From NCBI GenBank assembly GCA_021286765.1, contig JAJTBS010000004.1, positions 153,427-217,426 on the forward strand: a stretch of DNA of 64,000 nucleotides, given 5' to 3'. The translations under genes were made by a program, and so were the position numbers. Source of the stretch: Holophagaceae bacterium (GTDB lineage Bacteria > Acidobacteriota > Holophagae > Holophagales > Holophagaceae). Each line of letters starts with the position of its first letter. Positions within the stretch are counted from its first letter, which is position 1. Below the pieces are notes generated by a model, which saw nothing but the letters and a program-made list of their open reading frames with translations, had not been told where the DNA came from and made no database searches. This document shows positions 11,833-28,310 of this stretch, piece after piece.

Positions 11833-14800
11833 CTATTTGAGCAGGTGCATGAGCGGGTTGAAGACCTGGGTCAGCAGGCCGCCGAAGCTCGGATTCAACG
11901 TCGCCAGGAGCAGGAGCAGGGGCACCACCACGAAGCGGAAGCCATTCTCCACCAGCCCCAAGCTGAACTGCACCTCCCCGGGCTGGCTGCCTTCCATGAG
12001 GCAGAGCAGGGGGTCGCGCTCCATGCTGAGGATCACCAGGGTCACCCACAGGGCCATGCCCGTCAGGGCCCCGCTGAGGATGAGGAGCACATCGCTCTTG
12101 GGCTGGAAGTCGAAGGCCGCCACGCCCAGGATCACCAGGATCATGGTGCCCAGCGAGCCGATGAGCTGGGCCCGCAGCACGAGGAAGGCCTGCCGGATGA
12201 AGTGGACGGCGCGCAGGGCGAAGAAGAGATCCACCTCCGCCTGGTGGGCCGCCGCGGCGGCGGGGTCCTTGGCGCAGGCCACGGCCAGGGTGTCGCCGCA
12301 GGCGGTCATCTGGCGGGCGATGGCCAGGCGGTTGCGCCAGTTCTCGTACTCGCCCAAGCTCCGCCGGCTACGCGAGATCTTCTCGTCCAGATCCGTGAGG
12401 GCGCCGAGGCAGGCCTGGAACCCGGGGACGGCCCGGGCGATCCAGTCCTTCTGGGTCTGCAGGATCTCCCGTCCCCGGAGGCTGGAGCGGTGCGTGGACA
12501 GGCCACGACCCAGGGCCGTCATGGCCTTCCACTCGATGAGGGCCCCGACTTCGGCGAAGGCCGCCCGGTACGAGGCCAGATTCAGCACTTCCAATAGGCC
12601 GCGGCATTCCTTCCACCCCTGGTGGAACTGCCAGAAGAGGAAGGCGGACGACGTGAACAGCGCCGCGGCGATGGCGACCACCACCAGGGTGACGCCCTGC
12701 ACCTCCATGAGGGGCCGGATCAGGCCTCCGGGCATGATGAGCTGGAAGCCCACGAGGGCCGCCACGATGCCGAAGGTCCAGGGCTGGAAGTGGAGCCCCC
12801 GGAGGTGGCGCATGACCAGCACCTTCGGTTCGGTGATCCCGATGGGCTCGGGCCAGAAGGTGTCCTGGTTCTGCCGGCGGACATCGAACCAGGTGCGGAG
12901 CAGCAGGGCCACGCCGGCCGCCAGCAACAGCATCGAGGGAATGAGGGACACCCCCCGGCCCGGCGAGGAGAATCGCAGGTAGGCCGGCATGAAGACCAGG
13001 AAATGGGTCGGGCCCCAGATGAGGATGGCCACCGCCGGCAGCAGGGCGATCAGGAGCAAGAGGATGGCCAGCCAGCCGCCGACCAGGCCCCGGAGGCACC
13101 AGCCGGTCGCCAGGAAGACGCTCCCCCAGATCAGCACGCTCATCCACAGGTAGGGATCATGGCCGGGGTTCCCCCTCAGGATCGCCAGGGGCAGCAGGTA
13201 CCCCATGGCCAGGAAGGTCAGGACGGCCAGCGCCAGCACCGCGCCGGAGGCAAGGTAGCGGTAGGCCCGCAGGCCCGGCTCCCCCGCCGGAAGGCCCGCC
13301 ACCTGGCGCAGCGGCCGCAGGAAGACCAGCACCGAGGCGAGGCCCAGGCCGAACACCAGCATGGCCAGCTGGCGCAGCCTGGAGTACACGTACTGGACGA
13401 GGTCCCTGCTTTGGGTGGCGACCTCCCGGTAGCGCGCCTCCACCCCCTGATCCCAGACCAGGGTCCCGTCCCGGTTGGCCTCCGCCTCCAAGCCGCCGTG
13501 GCGCAGGGGCCAGATGCTGCCCCCCTTCACGATGGACACCAGCCCCTGCTTGCCCCAGTAGCGGCGCTCGGGATCATCCGCCTTGGCGGGATCCAAAAGC
13601 AGCAGCGTTGCGTAGTAGGTGGCGTACTCGCCTTCGGAGGTGAAGCGAACCGGCGATTCCAGGTCACCCTTCTTCAGCGAGAGCACCCGGACCGCGTCGG
13701 TCACGGCATAGCCGCCGAACAGCACCATGCCATCCATGGCTTGGCTGTGGTTCGGATGCGCGAAGAGGGCGTGATTGCCACTGGTGGTGAAGAGCGTGCA
13801 GCTGGGGTGATAGGCCCGGATCCGCTCCGCCAGGAAGAGCAGATCCTGCGGATCGCTGGCGGAGATCCCCACATGCGTGTAGCCCCGCCGGGCCAGGCTG
13901 AGAATGGTGCCTGCCAGGGTGAGTTCGGTGTTGCGCACGGTGTCTGGAGAATATTGGGGCACGGTGTCAAGCACCCGCAGCGCATCGTCCTCGGCCGGTC
14001 CCAGAAGGGTGGAGGGGAGCACCAGCTCCTGCGAATCCGCCCCCTTGGCCAGGTTCTGCTCCATGGCCCGCCGCTCCAAGCGCAGCCGCGACAGCCCCAT
14101 GGGAAACAGGATCTGGGTCATGGGCATCCCCCCGGCGCCCCGGTCTCGGCTGTAGACGGTGTTCGATTCCGTGAAGATGGCGATTTTCGAGGGATCCCGG
14201 GGCCACCCGGCCTGGGTGACATACCAGTCCAGGAGGCGGTCTTTCGAGGGGCCCGAGAGGTTGCAGATCCAGCCGGAGAGGCTGAGGCGCTTGAGATCGA
14301 CGGGCCCGACGGCTTCGCGCAGGGTCCTGGAGCCGGCCGCATCCAGCGTGGTCGTGCCCTGGACGCGGATGTCCGGGGCCGCCGGATCCCTGAAGTGGGC
14401 CTCCAGGCCAGCGCCCAGGGAGCTGAGGCTGCCGGAGAACTGGGGCCCGAGGATCCCGATGCGCCGACCGGTGGCCGGGGCCGGCAGCCGCGCGGCCAGG
14501 TGCAGCGCCTGCCGCAGGGCCTCGCGATTCACGCCCAGGGACTGGCTCTCGCCCACGATGAAGAGCGCGTGATAGGCGGGCGTGGAGCCCCCCCGGGCGA
14601 ACCAGATGAGCCCGGGTCCGCTCTCGGCGAACTCAGAGGAGATGCCGGCCCCGGAATCCTCCCGGCCCTTGGCTTCCCAGGGCAGGTAGAAGGCCCGGGG
14701 GAGGAACTCCGAGGCCTTGAAGGCCCGCTGCACCGCGTTCAGCCGCAGGTCGAACCAGAGCCCCATGTTCGTGCGCTGGGGGTCCGGCAGGGTGAGGATG

Positions 14801-15027
14801 GTGGCGGTGACTGTGGAGGCGGCCGCCTGGGGCCGGTCCCTGAGGCATTGCTCCAGCAGGGCGCCCACGGCCTCGACCTTGCGATCCTTTTTCGGCGCCT
14901 CCGCGGCCTTGGCCGCAGTGGGGGCCTCCCGCTTGAGCGTTTTCGAGCCAAGGCCCAGGCCCGGCACCAGGGCCAGGAGCGCCGTGAAGCCGACGCCCAG
15001 GGAGAGGGGGGAGAAGGCCTTGCTCAA
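11833..15027 (-). CDS. Large receptor-like membrane protein of unknown function (1064 aa)
   Basis: Not a family I can name. Visible layout: signal peptide at 1-27; a soluble, presumably periplasmic region at about 31-550; roughly ten transmembrane helices between 553 and 1050, with a cytoplasmic-looking helical stretch of about 150 residues (800-950) in the middle. The soluble region has alternating strand-helix units resembling a type I periplasmic-binding fold: RRIGILGPQFSGSLSSL (188-204), KIAIFTESNTVYSRD (282-296) and RRGYTHVGISASDPQDLLFL (380-399). That fold call is inference. The start is 16 bases after the papain-like protease stop, so the two form an operon behind a sigma-54-like promoter at 15791-15808. 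A sensor or transporter role is possible. Confidence 0.7.
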   Translation of the reverse strand: MSKAFSPLSLGVGFTALLALVPGLGLGSKTLKREAPTAAKAAEAPKKDRKVEAVGALLEQCLRDRPQAAASTVTATILTLPDPQRTNMGLWFDLRLNAVQRAFKASEFLPRAFYLPWEAKGREDSGAGISSEFAESGPGLIWFARGGSTPAYHALFIVGESQSLGVNREALRQALHLAARLPAPATGRRIGILGPQFSGSLSSLGAGLEAHFRDPAAPDIRVQGTTTLDAAGSRTLREAVGPVDLKRLSLSGWICNLSGPSKDRLLDWYVTQAGWPRDPSKIAIFTESNTVYSRDRGAGGMPMTQILFPMGLSRLRLERRAMEQNLAKGADSQELVLPSTLLGPAEDDALRVLDTVPQYSPDTVRNTELTLAGTILSLARRGYTHVGISASDPQDLLFLAERIRAYHPSCTLFTTSGNHALFAHPNHSQAMDGMVLFGGYAVTDAVRVLSLKKGDLESPVRFTSEGEYATYYATLLLLDPAKADDPERRYWGKQGLVSIVKGGSIWPLRHGGLEAEANRDGTLVWDQGVEARYREVATQSRDLVQYVYSRLRQLAMLVFGLGLASVLVFLRPLRQVAGLPAGEPGLRAYRYLASGAVLALAVLTFLAMGYLLPLAILRGNPGHDPYLWMSVLIWGSVFLATGWCLRGLVGGWLAILLLLIALLPAVAILIWGPTHFLVFMPAYLRFSSPGRGVSLIPSMLLLAAGVALLLRTWFDVRRQNQDTFWPEPIGITEPKVLVMRHLRGLHFQPWTFGIVAALVGFQLIMPGGLIRPLMEVQGVTLVVVAIAAALFTSSAFLFWQFHQGWKECRGLLEVLNLASYRAAFAEVGALIEWKAMTALGRGLSTHRSSLRGREILQTQKDWIARAVPGFQACLGALTDLDEKISRSRRSLGEYENWRNRLAIARQMTACGDTLAVACAKDPAAAAAHQAEVDLFFALRAVHFIRQAFLVLRAQLIGSLGTMILVILGVAAFDFQPKSDVLLILSGALTGMALWVTLVILSMERDPLLCLMEGSQPGEVQFSLGLVENGFRFVVVPLLLLLATLNPSFGGLLTQVFNPLMHLLK

Positions 15028-15043
15028 GGGATCCGCATCCGGT

Positions 15044-15751
15044 TCAGAGGGTCACCGTGGAGGCCTCGCCGTCCTCGTGGAGCAGGCGGTCCAGGTCTTT
15101 CCAGGAGAAGGCGAAGCGGCCCTGCAGCCCCCAGTCCGGGCCCCAGGAGTTGATGGCCCAGACCAGCTTCCGCTCGGCGTCCACGCCCAGCAGCTCGAAG
15201 GCATGACCGCCGCGCATGGCGCCCCGGACCTTCACGAGGCCCTTCGCATCGGGCTTGTCGAAACCTTCGTACCAGTTCAGTCCCACTTCCACGGGACCGA
15301 GGGTGGAGAGGGCCTTCAGGACGTCATCCAGGCCGAAGCACCACCGGTAGCCTTTCGTCAGACCAAGCGCCTTGAGGGCCTTCATGGCCGCCAGCACCGT
15401 CGACCCTGTGTCCCTGGGCGGCCAGGCGCCCACGATGGTGTCGTGGTGGGAGGCCTGGGTGTAGACCTTGCGGGCCAGGGCCTCGTTGTACCGGACTCCG
15501 GCTTGGCGGTAGGGCTCGGTGCAGATCACTCCGACGGCCCCATTGCCGGTGCAGGAGCCGAGCTCGCCCTGGTTGAAGGCTTTCAGGGTGCGATTCCAGA
15601 TGCGCGTCTGGATGGCGGCCCCCTTCTTCAGCAGGACCGGGAAGTTCCGGCTGCGCTCATCGAAGTGCAGGTGGCGCCCGAGGCGCCCGCCGTGCTGGGA
15701 CACATGCTCGGTGATCAGGCCGATGCGGTGGGGATGGGGCGCGTTCGCCAC
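15044..15751 (-). CDS. Papain-like (C1 family) cysteine peptidase
   Basis: A 235-residue protein without a signal peptide. Catalytic residues are visible in order: Gln61 and Cys67 in QGELGSCTGNG, His183 in GGHAFELLGVD, and Asn201 in INSWGPDWGLQGRF. The compact length and LGSCTGNG motif resemble C1 peptidases found in phages and in bacterial accessory loci. The GTG at 15751 has GGAGG five bases upstream. About 30 bases further up lies the predicted start of a transcript from the sigma-54-like element at 15791-15808. The large membrane protein gene follows after 16 bases. No propeptide is seen, so activity may be controlled by expression or partner binding. Confidence 0.88.
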   Translation of the reverse strand: MANAPHPHRIGLITEHVSQHGGRLGRHLHFDERSRNFPVLLKKGAAIQTRIWNRTLKAFNQGELGSCTGNGAVGVICTEPYRQAGVRYNEALARKVYTQASHHDTIVGAWPPRDTGSTVLAAMKALKALGLTKGYRWCFGLDDVLKALSTLGPVEVGLNWYEGFDKPDAKGLVKVRGAMRGGHAFELLGVDAERKLVWAINSWGPDWGLQGRFAFSWKDLDRLLHEDGEASTVTL

Positions 15752-15790: not shown

Positions 15791-15808
15791 TGGCAACCTG
15801 CACGCCAA
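15791..15808 (-). promoter_or_regulatory. Sigma-54-type -24/-12 promoter for the peptidase operon
   Basis: Minus-strand reading is TTGGCGTGCAGGTTGCCA. GG and GC are separated by ten bases, and TTGC stands at -12, as required for RpoN. The predicted transcript start is near 15781, about 30 bases before the GTG at 15751. The same TTGG-N10-GCCA framework, including TTGC, recurs at 17341-17358 on the other strand. Confidence 0.65.
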
Positions 15809-15975: not shown

Positions 15976-16965
15976 TCAGATGGGGACCCGGTCCTCCGGC
16001 GAGAACCGCCCCTGCCTGGGGGCATGGCCCAGGCCGTATTTCTTGAGCAGCTTGCCCAGGCTGCGCCGTTCCTTGCCGGCCAGCTTCGCCGCGAGGCTGA
16101 CGTTGCCTCCGGCCAGCCCCAGCAGGCCCACCAGGTAGGCCCGCTCAAAGGCCTCCACGGCCCGGGCCTTGGCCCGATGGAAGGTCAGCTCGCCCACCGG
16201 GGGTTCGGGGCTTCCCTGGGGCAGCGGGTGCATGGCCTTGGGTGGGTCGATGCGGATGACGGCTCCCTCCGCGAGGAGGTATTCCCGGTAGAGGAGGTTC
16301 TCCAGCTCACGGATGTTGCCGGGCCAGTGGTAGTGGCCCATCCAGGCCAGGGAGTCCGGGTGAATGGTCCTGGGACCCAGGCCGAAGCGCTTGTCGCAGG
16401 CCTCCAGGAACCAGGCGGCCAAATCCTCGATGTCCCCGCTCCGCTCCCGGAGGGGGGCCAGCTCGAGGCAGAGGATCTTCAGCCGGTACAGCAGGTCGGA
16501 ACGAAAGGCTCCGCGCTCGGCCAGCTGTGCGAGGTTGCTGTTGCTGGCGGCCAGGATGCGCACATTCCCCTGCTGGACCTGGCGCGCCCCCAGGGGACGG
16601 AACTCCTGATCCTGAAGGAATCGCAGGAGCGTCACCTGTCCCTTGGTGGAGAGGGCATCCACTTCATCCAGGAAGAGGGTCCCGCCCTCTGCCAGCGTCA
16701 CCAGGCCCGGCTGGTTGTCCTTGGCATCCGTGAAGGCCCCCTTGCGGTGCCCGAACAACTCGCTTTCGATGAGCGAATCGGGGATCGCGCCGCAGTTGAC
16801 GGCGATGAAGGGGCCCTCCTTCCGCACGCTCTGGTAGTGGATGGCCCGGGCGGCCAGCTCCTTCCCCGTGCCGGTCTCGCCCTCGATGAGCACCGGCGCA
16901 TCGCAGGCCGCCATGCGCGCAACGAGTCGCAGGGTCTCCCGCAGGGCTGGTGAATGACCGATCAA
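15976..16965 (-). CDS. Sigma-54-dependent transcriptional activator (AAA+ plus Fis-type HTH)
   Basis: A 329-residue enhancer-binding protein with no N-terminal sensory domain. The AAA+ core shows Walker A GETGTGKE (29-36), the sigma-54-contacting loop GAFTDA (76-81), Walker B GTLFLDEVDAL and the R-finger region; the C-terminus (FERAYLVGLLGLAGGNVSLAAKLAG) is a Fis-type helix-turn-helix. It should drive RpoN promoters such as the two flanking ones. The start is set at the TTG at 16965, preceded by AGAGGAG five bases away; an ATG at 17034 adds 23 residues but lacks a ribosome-binding site and has codon use unlike the gene. Lack of a receiver or GAF domain implies control by its own level or by a partner protein. 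Confidence 0.9.
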   Translation of the reverse strand: MIGHSPALRETLRLVARMAACDAPVLIEGETGTGKELAARAIHYQSVRKEGPFIAVNCGAIPDSLIESELFGHRKGAFTDAKDNQPGLVTLAEGGTLFLDEVDALSTKGQVTLLRFLQDQEFRPLGARQVQQGNVRILAASNSNLAQLAERGAFRSDLLYRLKILCLELAPLRERSGDIEDLAAWFLEACDKRFGLGPRTIHPDSLAWMGHYHWPGNIRELENLLYREYLLAEGAVIRIDPPKAMHPLPQGSPEPPVGELTFHRAKARAVEAFERAYLVGLLGLAGGNVSLAAKLAGKERRSLGKLLKKYGLGHAPRQGRFSPEDRVPI

Positions 16966-17141
16966 CTGGACTCCTCTGAGGATGTCGGAGACGCCTTCCT
17001 TCCATGGAAGTTCAGAAAGGCAATATAGACCCATTCAATTGTCATGCAAGACATCAACAATGCCTGTTTTTGTCAATCGAACATAAGAAGCGCATGGACA
17101 AAACTTGAATCAGCATGGCTACAGATGGCGGAAGAACCGTC

Positions 17142-17340: not shown

Positions 17341-17358
17341 TTGGCCCGGTGATTGCCA
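17341..17358 (+). promoter_or_regulatory. Sigma-54-type -24/-12 promoter for the holin-muramidase operon
   Basis: The sequence TTGGCCCGGTGATTGCCA places GG (17343-17344) and GC (17355-17356) ten bases apart, with TTGC at the -12 site. The expected transcript start is near 17367, about 20 bases before the ATG at 17388. The element shares TTGGC and TTGCCA with the promoter at 15791-15808. The divergent activator gene lies directly upstream. Confidence 0.65.
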
Positions 17359-17387: not shown

Positions 17388-17681
17388 ATGAACGCATCCC
17401 CCACATCCGACCCGAGCGTCCTGTGCCAAGGCATCCTGCATTACCTCCAGGACCATCCGGCTGCCGCCGACAGCCTGGAGGGCATCGCCTCCTGGTGGCT
17501 TTCCCCGGCGCAGTACTCCGTCACCACCGAGGCGGTCCAGGCGGCCCTGGACCTGTTGGTGGCCGAGCGCCGCATCGCCCGCATCGAGCTGGCGGATGGA
17601 CGCGTCCTGTACCAGAGCGCCGACAAGGTCTCCGGCTCGCACCCGGCCTGGCCCCCCACCGACCCTAGGAGACGACCATGA
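17388..17681 (+). CDS. Small winged-helix-like protein, first gene of the lysis-type operon
   Basis: A 97-residue soluble protein not assigned to a named family. Its core (ILHYLQDHPAAADSLEGIA, then TTEAVQAALDLLVAERRIARI and a short strand pair ending GRVLYQ) follows the helix-helix-recognition helix-wing order of a winged helix. The C-terminus is Pro/Arg-rich. The ATG at 17388 lies about 20 bases after the predicted sigma-54 transcript start; a GTG at 17349 would lie within the promoter element. Its last codons overlap the muramidase start (ATGA at 17678). It may regulate the cassette or bind a partner; no function is established. Confidence 0.7.
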   Translation: MNASPTSDPSVLCQGILHYLQDHPAAADSLEGIASWWLSPAQYSVTTEAVQAALDLLVAERRIARIELADGRVLYQSADKVSGSHPAWPPTDPRRRP

Positions 17682-18217
17682 GCAGCGTCCTGGACGAAGC
17701 CCTCGCCTTCACCCTCGGCAACGAGGGTGGCTACGTCAACCACCCGGCCGATCCGGGCGGTGCCACCAACTTCGGCATCATCCAGAAGAACCTCACCAAG
17801 TGGAATGCCGCCCATCCCGAGCTGGGGTTCCCCCCCAGCGTCCGGGATCTCACCATGGATCAGGCGAGGACGATCTATCGCACCGAATACTGGCGCTGGG
17901 ATGCCATCGCGGACCCCGCCATCGCCATCAAGCTCTTCGACATCGGCGTGAACTGCGGCACGGGCACCTCCATCCGGCTGCTGCAACGAGCCGTCAATCT
18001 CCTGGTGAATCCCCCCATCGACACCGACGGGAAGCTCGGCCCAGGAACCCTCGGCGCGGCGAACGCCCAGGCCCCGGAAGCCCTCATGCAGGCGCTCTGC
18101 CGGATCCAGAAGGAGCACTATCAGTCGCTGGTCGCCAGCGATCCCAGCCAGTCCGTCTTCCTGAAGGGCTGGCTCAACCGTGCGGCACGCATCCCGGAGG
18201 TCGTCCATGGCGTTTGA
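17678..18217 (+). CDS. GH108 family muramidase (endolysin-like) with peptidoglycan-binding domain
   Basis: A 179-residue peptidoglycan hydrolase. The GH108 signature is at residues 15-34 (NEGGYVNHPADPGGATNFGI), with the catalytic Glu in NEGGY. The C-terminal half (SIRLLQRAVNLL and DGKLGPGTLGAANA) fits the PG_binding_3 domain that normally accompanies it. The size is that of a complete phage endolysin, and no signal peptide is present, so a holin would be needed to reach the cell wall. It overlaps the winged-helix gene by 4 bases and the holin gene by 11 bases. Family function is cleavage of the MurNAc-GlcNAc bond. Confidence 0.93.
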   Translation: MSSVLDEALAFTLGNEGGYVNHPADPGGATNFGIIQKNLTKWNAAHPELGFPPSVRDLTMDQARTIYRTEYWRWDAIADPAIAIKLFDIGVNCGTGTSIRLLQRAVNLLVNPPIDTDGKLGPGTLGAANAQAPEALMQALCRIQKEHYQSLVASDPSQSVFLKGWLNRAARIPEVVHGV

Positions 18218-18749
18218 CTGGAAAGCGCTCGTCAAGAGCATCGCCCCCACCATCGGCACGGCGCTGGGAGGCCCCCTGGGCGGCATGGCCGGCGTGGCCC
18301 TGACCAAGGCCCTGGGCATGGGTGATGACGCGCCCAAGGACGAGACGGCCCTGGCCGCCGCGGTCCAGGGGGCCAATCCCGACCAGCTGCTCGCTCTGAA
18401 GAAGGCCGACCAGGACTTCGCGGTCCAGATGCAGAAGCTGGGCTTCGAGAACATCGAAGCCCTGGAGGCCATCGCCGCCGGCGACCGCGCCAACGCCCGG
18501 GACCGGGAGATCAAGACCCAGGACTGGACCCCCAAGGCCCTGGGCATCGCCATCACCCTGGGCTTCTTCGGGCTCCTGGGCTTCCTGATGAAGCGGGAGC
18601 CGCCCTCGGGATCCCGGGACATCCTCAACATTATGCTGGGCAGCCTGGGTTCCGCCTGGATCGGGGTCGTGTCCTACTACTTCGGCTCCAGCGCGGGGTC
18701 CGCCCGCAAGACCGAGATGATGGCAAAGCAACAGACCCCAACATCGTAA
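18207..18749 (+). CDS. Holin of the three-TM superfamily
   Basis: A 180-residue protein matching 3TM-type holins: a glycine-rich hydrophobic N-terminal segment (IGTALGGPLGGMAGVALT), a central amphipathic charged helix with the typical GDRANARDREIKTQDW pattern, then two membrane helices (ALGIAITLGFFGLLGFLM and a segment ending AWIGVVSYYFGSSAGS). The protein should open the inner membrane for the upstream muramidase. The ATG at 18207 has GGAGG five bases upstream, inside the muramidase gene. No spanin gene follows; the next gene is transhydrogenase pntAA with its own spacing. No capsid, tail or integrase genes flank the cassette. Confidence 0.88.
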   Translation: MAFDWKALVKSIAPTIGTALGGPLGGMAGVALTKALGMGDDAPKDETALAAAVQGANPDQLLALKKADQDFAVQMQKLGFENIEALEAIAAGDRANARDREIKTQDWTPKALGIAITLGFFGLLGFLMKREPPSGSRDILNIMLGSLGSAWIGVVSYYFGSSAGSARKTEMMAKQQTPTS

Positions 18750-27656: not shown

Positions 27657-28310
27657 TCAGCGCAGCCCGTGTCTGGCTTTGAATCCCGCCCAAGACTGCT
27701 TCGCCTCCAGGAAGGCCTCCACATCCGCACACAGGAGGAAGGGGTTGTTGCGGCGCTCCCAGGCCACGGTGGAACTGGGGCGGGCGCCGTAGTCGTGGCC
27801 CGGCCAGATCGTCGTGTGATCCGACCAGTCCCGCAGCAGGCGCTGGAGGCTGGCCCATTCCGCGCGGCCATCGGCCTCGGTCTGGGTGCCGCCCACCTTC
27901 CCCACGAAGAGCAGGTCACCCGTGAAGGCGGCATCCTGCCCCTCCACCAGGAAGGCGAGGTGATCGCGATGATGGCCTGGCACATGCCAGGTACGGATCG
28001 AGAAGGCTCCGAAAGCAACCCTGTCTCCATCCCGCAGCGTCAAGTCCACAGGGCCCGGGTGGCCCGGCCCTCCTGCCACCGAGGCACCCGTGAGGGCTTT
28101 GGCCACCTCATTGCCATTGGTGTGGTCGGGATGGCCGTGGGTGTTGAGGATGTGGTTGATTCTCAGCCCCTGGGCCAGGGCCCGTTCCAACAAAGCCTCT
28201 GGCGTGTACGACGGGTCGATGACGACACCGGCACCAGCTTCCCGGTCGCCCAGCAGATACCCGAAGTTGCGATCCCCACCGACCCGGAGCTGTTCAAAAA
28301 TGAAGCGCAT
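27657..28310 (-). CDS. MBL-fold hydrolase, glyoxalase II/persulfide dioxygenase-like
   Basis: A 217-residue metallo-beta-lactamase-fold enzyme. Metal ligands are seen as THGHPDH (His58, His60, Asp62, His63), a further histidine in WHVPGHHRDH, the bridging Asp in TGDLLFVGKVGGT and a terminal His in IWPGHDYG. The motif GDLLFVGKVGGT and PGHDYG are shared by hydroxyacylglutathione hydrolases and ETHE1-type persulfide dioxygenases; the present sequence cannot separate them. It begins at the ATG at 28310. The gene lies between a beta-barrel gene and the nap cluster upstream region. Confidence 0.85.
   Translation of the reverse strand: MRFIFEQLRVGGDRNFGYLLGDREAGAGVVIDPSYTPEALLERALAQGLRINHILNTHGHPDHTNGNEVAKALTGASVAGGPGHPGPVDLTLRDGDRVAFGAFSIRTWHVPGHHRDHLAFLVEGQDAAFTGDLLFVGKVGGTQTEADGRAEWASLQRLLRDWSDHTTIWPGHDYGARPSSTVAWERRNNPFLLCADVEAFLEAKQSWAGFKARHGLR

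Follow-up and report, generated by a model that had tools for sequence, protein, structure and literature searches.

What is a large membrane protein of no recognisable family sensing or moving, and why is it encoded next to a protease? The question arises from a gene, here called R, in a 64,000-nucleotide stretch of a Holophagaceae genome (the window). R runs on the minus strand from a TTG start at 15027 to 11833, as read from the ORF list and translation, and encodes 1064 amino acids. A first-pass annotation had described the product as a fusion of a periplasmic-binding protein (PBP)-like region with about ten membrane helices, linked to the protease and able either to sense a ligand or to transport it. 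What is new here, beyond that annotation, is the gene context of R, a cassette of two divergent operons, with a sigma-54 activator (EBP), the papain-like protease C1 and R in one direction, and in the other a GH108 endolysin and a holin-like protein, preceded by a protein of 97 aa (Table 1).

Layout and distribution of R

Hydropathy divides R into an N-terminal hydrophobic segment, an outside domain of about 525 residues, seven predicted transmembrane (TM) helices, a loop of 154 residues and three further helices. The loop is placed in the cytoplasm and the large domain outside on account of the positive-inside charge pattern. The first-pass annotation had proposed a signal peptide, about ten helices and the two soluble regions, with sizes of 520 and about 150 residues, and the topology prediction that it called for returned the same layout in R and in divergent family members at only about 20-22% identity. 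The three C-terminal helices carry the family consensus FQP ... RDxxLSRI ... LPLL ... FPxxGG. Of the residues that are invariant across the divergent family, most belong to the outside domain, as in GPxFSGS and the VAxLxExxTxYG stretch.

Table 1. Predicted features of the R cassette, in window coordinates
Feature	Position	Strand	Basis
R, 1064-aa receptor-like membrane protein, undescribed family	11833..15027	-	ORF, translation, intact Geothrix orthologs, distant Acidobacteriota family
R residues 8-26, N-terminal hydrophobic segment (signal peptide or anchor)	14950..15006	-	hydropathy, family-wide conservation
R residues 70-545, extracytoplasmic alpha/beta domain, type I PBP-like (moderate support)	13393..14820	-	full-length model match 3hut
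R residues 555-799, seven predicted TM helices	12631..13365	-	hydropathy, positive-inside pattern
R residues 800-953, predicted cytoplasmic domain, mostly helical in the model, ~154 aa	12169..12630	-	hydropathy/charge, model
R residues 954-1050, three C-terminal TM helices with conserved motif	11878..12168	-	hydropathy, alignment
C1, papain-like cysteine protease, ~235 aa from conserved GTG start	15044..15751	-	Pfam, PDB, PHROG
Predicted sigma-54 promoter TTGGCGTGCAGGTTGC before C1-R	15793..15808	-	matching position in all 9 cassette C1 genes
EBP, sigma-54 activator, AAA+ and Fis HTH	15976..17034	-	Pfam Sigma54_activat 3e-63
Predicted sigma-54 promoter TTGGCCCGGTGATTGC before lysis operon	17341..17356	+	matching position in cassette loci scanned over that flank
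97-aa protein	17388..17681	+	conserved in cassettes; weak PHROG 1578
GH108 N-acetylmuramidase, phage-type endolysin	17678..18217	+	Pfam GH108 4e-23, PG_binding_3, PHROG 315 1.7e-42
Holin-like small membrane protein	18207..18749	+	phage PHROG 1544 (function unknown there); overlaps endolysin gene

Named records carrying R belong to Geothrix and Holophagaceae; Geothrix and its relatives are bacteria of soil and groundwater. Within a search of 60 genomes, R is intact in 10 of 37 Geothrix genomes, the nine other copies being 58-81% identical to that in the window, and since it is full length and free of stops in all ten, it is not a chance reading frame. A profile search extended the family to distant members (20-22% identity, mostly 1100-1450 aa) in 26 of 392 Acidobacteriota genomes and 14 of 207 genera. 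No match to R was found in Pfam, NCBIfam, PADLOC, PHROGs or PDB sequences, Pfam was equally empty over 16 family members, and the earlier statement that R belongs to no known family thus holds at the sequence level. Searches by tblastn with five family members as queries found none on plasmids.

Several R homologs are interrupted, whether by stop codons, by frame changes or by the end of a contig (L049:9024-12725, L045:5941-9050, L056 and L061), which suggests repeated decay of the gene. In addition, genome G243 encodes a second, longer R-like protein of 1385 aa (L106:8552-12709), and the lysis cassette does not adjoin it.

Fold of the outside domain

The alpha/beta repeat region of the outside domain is real, and a type I PBP-like fold has moderate support and is considered likely. 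The fold search proposed in the first-pass annotation gave, for a full-length model built from nine sequences and of low confidence (pLDDT 58), a best match to the type I PBP 3hut (Foldseek probability 0.99, E 0.024), followed by other type I PBPs and the GABA-B and AMPA receptors, amid unrelated membrane proteins. The domain-only model was no more confident than the full-length one and returned mixed Rossmann-like matches. Comparison of R with LivJ-type PBPs by hhalign gave a non-significant probability of 1.5%, with a score of 24 against a maximum of 18 in 30 shuffles, and neither hhalign nor a Pfam search of 16 members detected sequence or profile homology to Peripla_BP_6 or ANF_receptor. 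The PBP-like description corresponds to the best fold match of the full-length model; the profile comparison does not confirm it. The conserved GPxFSGS motif is reminiscent of the GPxSS motif of type I PBPs and receptor ligand-binding domains.

Genes of the cassette

C1 carries the catalytic Q, C, H and N and belongs to the papain family, with matches to cathepsin B-like PDB entries (2e-7) and to a phage peptidase (PHROG 16701, 8.6e-47); its score against Pfam Peptidase_C1 (7e-4, 20.1 bits) lies slightly below the cut-off of 20.7. No signal peptide was seen in its sequence. The activator has no receiver domain, and would presumably require a partner protein, like PspF. On the opposite strand, the endolysin combines GH108 with PG_binding_3 and matches the PHROG 315 endolysins, and is thus a peptidoglycan hydrolase of the phage type expected in a type 10 cassette, while the protein encoded after it had no match among curated holin models.

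The composition of the cassette bears on whether R senses or transports, both of which had been offered for it. R could be an uptake system in which a binding-protein domain is fused to its own permease and imports hydrolase products; a PBP-like outside domain followed by ten TM helices would suit this, and the ligand could come from the adjacent hydrolases. We nevertheless judge it quite unlikely, as R matches no known permease domain or other transporter family, no ABC ATPase was seen in the cassette and no ATPase partner was found, and a sigma-54 activator with lysis genes would be atypical of an uptake operon. Sensing fits the regulatory context better.

Predicted sigma-54 promoters

Both operons are preceded by the pattern TTGGC-N7-TTGC, a -24/-12 type element (GG-N10-GC), which is found at three places in the 64-kb window against 0.67 expected from shuffles, with 3 of 100 shuffles reaching three. 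Upstream of the C1 core, the strict pattern lies at 78-84 nt in eight of nine cassettes; in the ninth (L013), CTGGCGTAGGCATTGC stands 80 nt upstream. A predicted sigma-54 site precedes C1 in all nine cassettes and in none of the 14 copies lacking R as a neighbour, one of which (in G031) still adjoins an activator gene; the corresponding p of 1.8e-5 is inflated by kinship within the genus. RpoN is encoded in the window genome. The sequence features of a sigma-54-regulated operon, namely -24/-12 elements, an EBP and RpoN, are found together, and the cassette thus appears to carry both an activator and its target promoters. The sigma-contacting loop of the EBP reads GAFTDA, not GAFTGA, in all nine cassette orthologs read.

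The third occurrence of the pattern, TTGGCCACCTCATTGC at 28099-28114 (+), lies inside a predicted gene on the opposite strand (27657-28310) and may be due to chance. The start region of the activator gene at 17021-17085 (-), CAGGCATTGTT...TTGCATG...CAAT..AATGGGT.TATATTGCC, is conserved between cassettes whose surrounding sequence has diverged. In the predicted reading frame, some activator orthologs have a hydrophobic N-terminus.

Inheritance and genomic sites of the cassette

The cassette is found as a unit at different chromosomal sites, with its gene order fixed. In the window, L017 and L063 it occupies the pnt site, with the same flanking genes present also in L011 and L062; in L015 and L018 its neighbour is an eCIS cluster, and in L012 it lies elsewhere. 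Among Geothrix genomes, an endolysin ortholog with at least 69% identity is present in 9 of the 10 that carry R and in none of the 27 that do not (p 8e-8, inflated by kinship within the genus). The R-carrying genome in which no close endolysin ortholog was found is G031, where R and the activator-C1 block are on separate contigs.

The link to the protease, which the first-pass annotation had noted, is sound as to position, with C1 kept upstream of R in 9 of 11 Geothrix loci. C1 orthologs also occur in many Geothrix genomes that lack R, where they stand by themselves at the pnt site or next to clpB, and in G009 the cassette is present and C1 is missing; the protease is thus a frequent partner that the cassette can do without, and strict dependence of R on it was rejected. 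The endolysin is a better marker of the cassette, and the sigma-54 activator and phage-type lysis genes, which the first-pass annotation had not included, are linked to R at least as well as the protease is. Beside clpB, C1 has a second conserved home in Geothrix (L130-L139, e.g. L130:7496-8203), where it has no sigma-54 site, and G026 and G035 hold a clpB-side copy in addition to the cassette copy.

Mere co-residence of R and the lysis cassette on a genomic island, with no functional tie between them, would be in keeping with the loci in which C1 and R are apart, and transfer can cluster accessory genes by chance. This explanation is nonetheless improbable, given that each operon has a predicted sigma-54 promoter, that gene order is fixed at different chromosomal sites, and that regulator and muramidase/papain partners recur beside R in another genus, as described below.

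R neighbourhoods elsewhere in Acidobacteriota

In genome G396, an ECF sigma factor, a Ser/Thr kinase, R and an 863-aa muramidase-papain fusion follow one another, an arrangement in which regulator, receptor, muramidase and papain recur, built for the most part from non-homologous proteins. In the fusion protein (L053:6544-9135, +), the N-acetylmuramidase domain is joined to a papain-like domain, recognisable by its Q/C/H/N motifs, and to a C-terminal part with a lipase-like serine motif (HSAGG). In G416, R is preceded by a LytTR regulator and followed by a metallophosphoesterase and a C92 papain-like protein that scores below the Pfam cut-off; in G077, an OmpR-type regulator follows R; and in two further genera (G113 and G277), patatin-like proteins adjoin it. 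Many distant R loci have one such neighbour or none, and for this reason the trend toward regulators and hydrolases across the phylum is suggestive only.

R adjoins true eCIS clusters in only two lineages, and in the genus g119 it is divergent from an eCIS sheath operon; within the window, no eCIS lies next to R. A tail-tube marker is present in 11 of 26 genomes with the R family and 38 of 366 without it (p 7e-5), a co-occurrence that is not taken as proof because the tube-like gene of the window genome is an orphan and the loci in G009 and G243 look alike. Dependence of R on eCIS was not upheld for the same reason. The orphan of the window genome resembles the T4 gp19 tail-tube gene and has a small partner upstream (L154:9253-10128, C6 near 549717), and no other injection-system genes were found near it. 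A similar pair is present in G243, and a similar tube-like gene lies beside R in L013.

These neighbourhoods also bear on the possibility that R is itself part of a lytic or release machinery, as an anchor, gate or immunity component restraining the holin and endolysin or an injection particle. Such a role would account for the tight linkage of R to lysis genes and for its position beside eCIS clusters in two separate lineages. We hold it to be unlikely, as eCIS is absent next to most R loci, a large outside alpha/beta domain with regulator neighbours fits sensing better, and the topology of R is, to our knowledge, unlike that of known holins or spanins.

A possible sensor for controlled lysis

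The reading we favour, tentatively and at slightly short of an even chance, is that R is a ligand-sensing membrane receptor rather than a transporter, and that it controls a hydrolase and lysis programme via the sigma-54 activator. An extracytoplasmic signal would be bound by the outside domain, probably of the type I PBP kind, and the part formed by seven TM helices, the cytoplasmic domain and three TM helices would relay its state inward, most likely to the co-encoded activator. The activator would then turn on the two cassette promoters, the first driving C1 and R itself, as feedback, and the second driving the 97-aa protein, the endolysin and the holin-like protein. The products of the lysis operon would open the envelope, leading to cell lysis or protein release. 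On this view R, acting as a sensor, may set the moment of cell opening or protein release, and the distant R proteins could play a similar role with different regulators and hydrolases. Of this scheme, the cassette, its joint inheritance, the promoter pattern and the predicted topology are observed, whereas ligand binding, contact between R and the activator, and lysis or release as the outcome are inferred.

Phage-type lysis cassettes are already known in bacteria, and how their firing is decided is often open. Few signalling outputs have been characterised in Acidobacteriota; if the receptor reading is correct, R is a candidate for the sensor behind controlled lysis or type 10-like release in this phylum. 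A large undescribed family of membrane proteins would then be tied to a regulatory circuit that can be tested and whose two promoters are defined. With a receptor-like protein, an activator and promoters in one cassette, the decision to lyse becomes testable at a single locus.

Comparison with known systems

The families and literature searched contained no cassette equipped with both a receptor-like protein and a sigma-54 circuit of its own. Bacterial phage-type lysis cassettes that serve release have been termed type 10 secretion (PMC10847046). The R cassette shares with these holin-endolysin cassettes a phage-type endolysin and an adjacent holin-like membrane protein (PMC10847046), and differs from them in its predicted sigma-54 promoters, dedicated activator, papain-like protease and R, while spanins were not identified in it. 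As for eCIS, R stands beside such clusters in two lineages and has no adjacent cluster in the window.

Type I PBPs and receptor ligand-binding domains (LivJ type, GABA-B, AMPA) are the best fold matches of the full-length R model; unlike type I PBPs, R is fused to ten TM helices and has no significant sequence or profile homology to them. By analogy, class C GPCRs and the bacterial 7TMR-DISM receptors also place an outside sensor domain before seven TM helices, whereas R has an additional cytoplasmic domain and three more helices, and it matched none of the 7TM Pfam domains of these two receptor groups. A broader and unlikely proposal is that the whole R family combines a Venus-flytrap-like outer domain with a core of seven helices, convergent with the class C GPCR layout, and gates sigma-54-driven self-lysis or release across the phylum with exchangeable regulators and hydrolases. 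The activator, finally, resembles PspF-type activators in consisting of AAA+ and HTH domains only, without a receiver, and presumably in being controlled by a partner; it scores below the curated PspF cut-off, and its presumed partner would be R.
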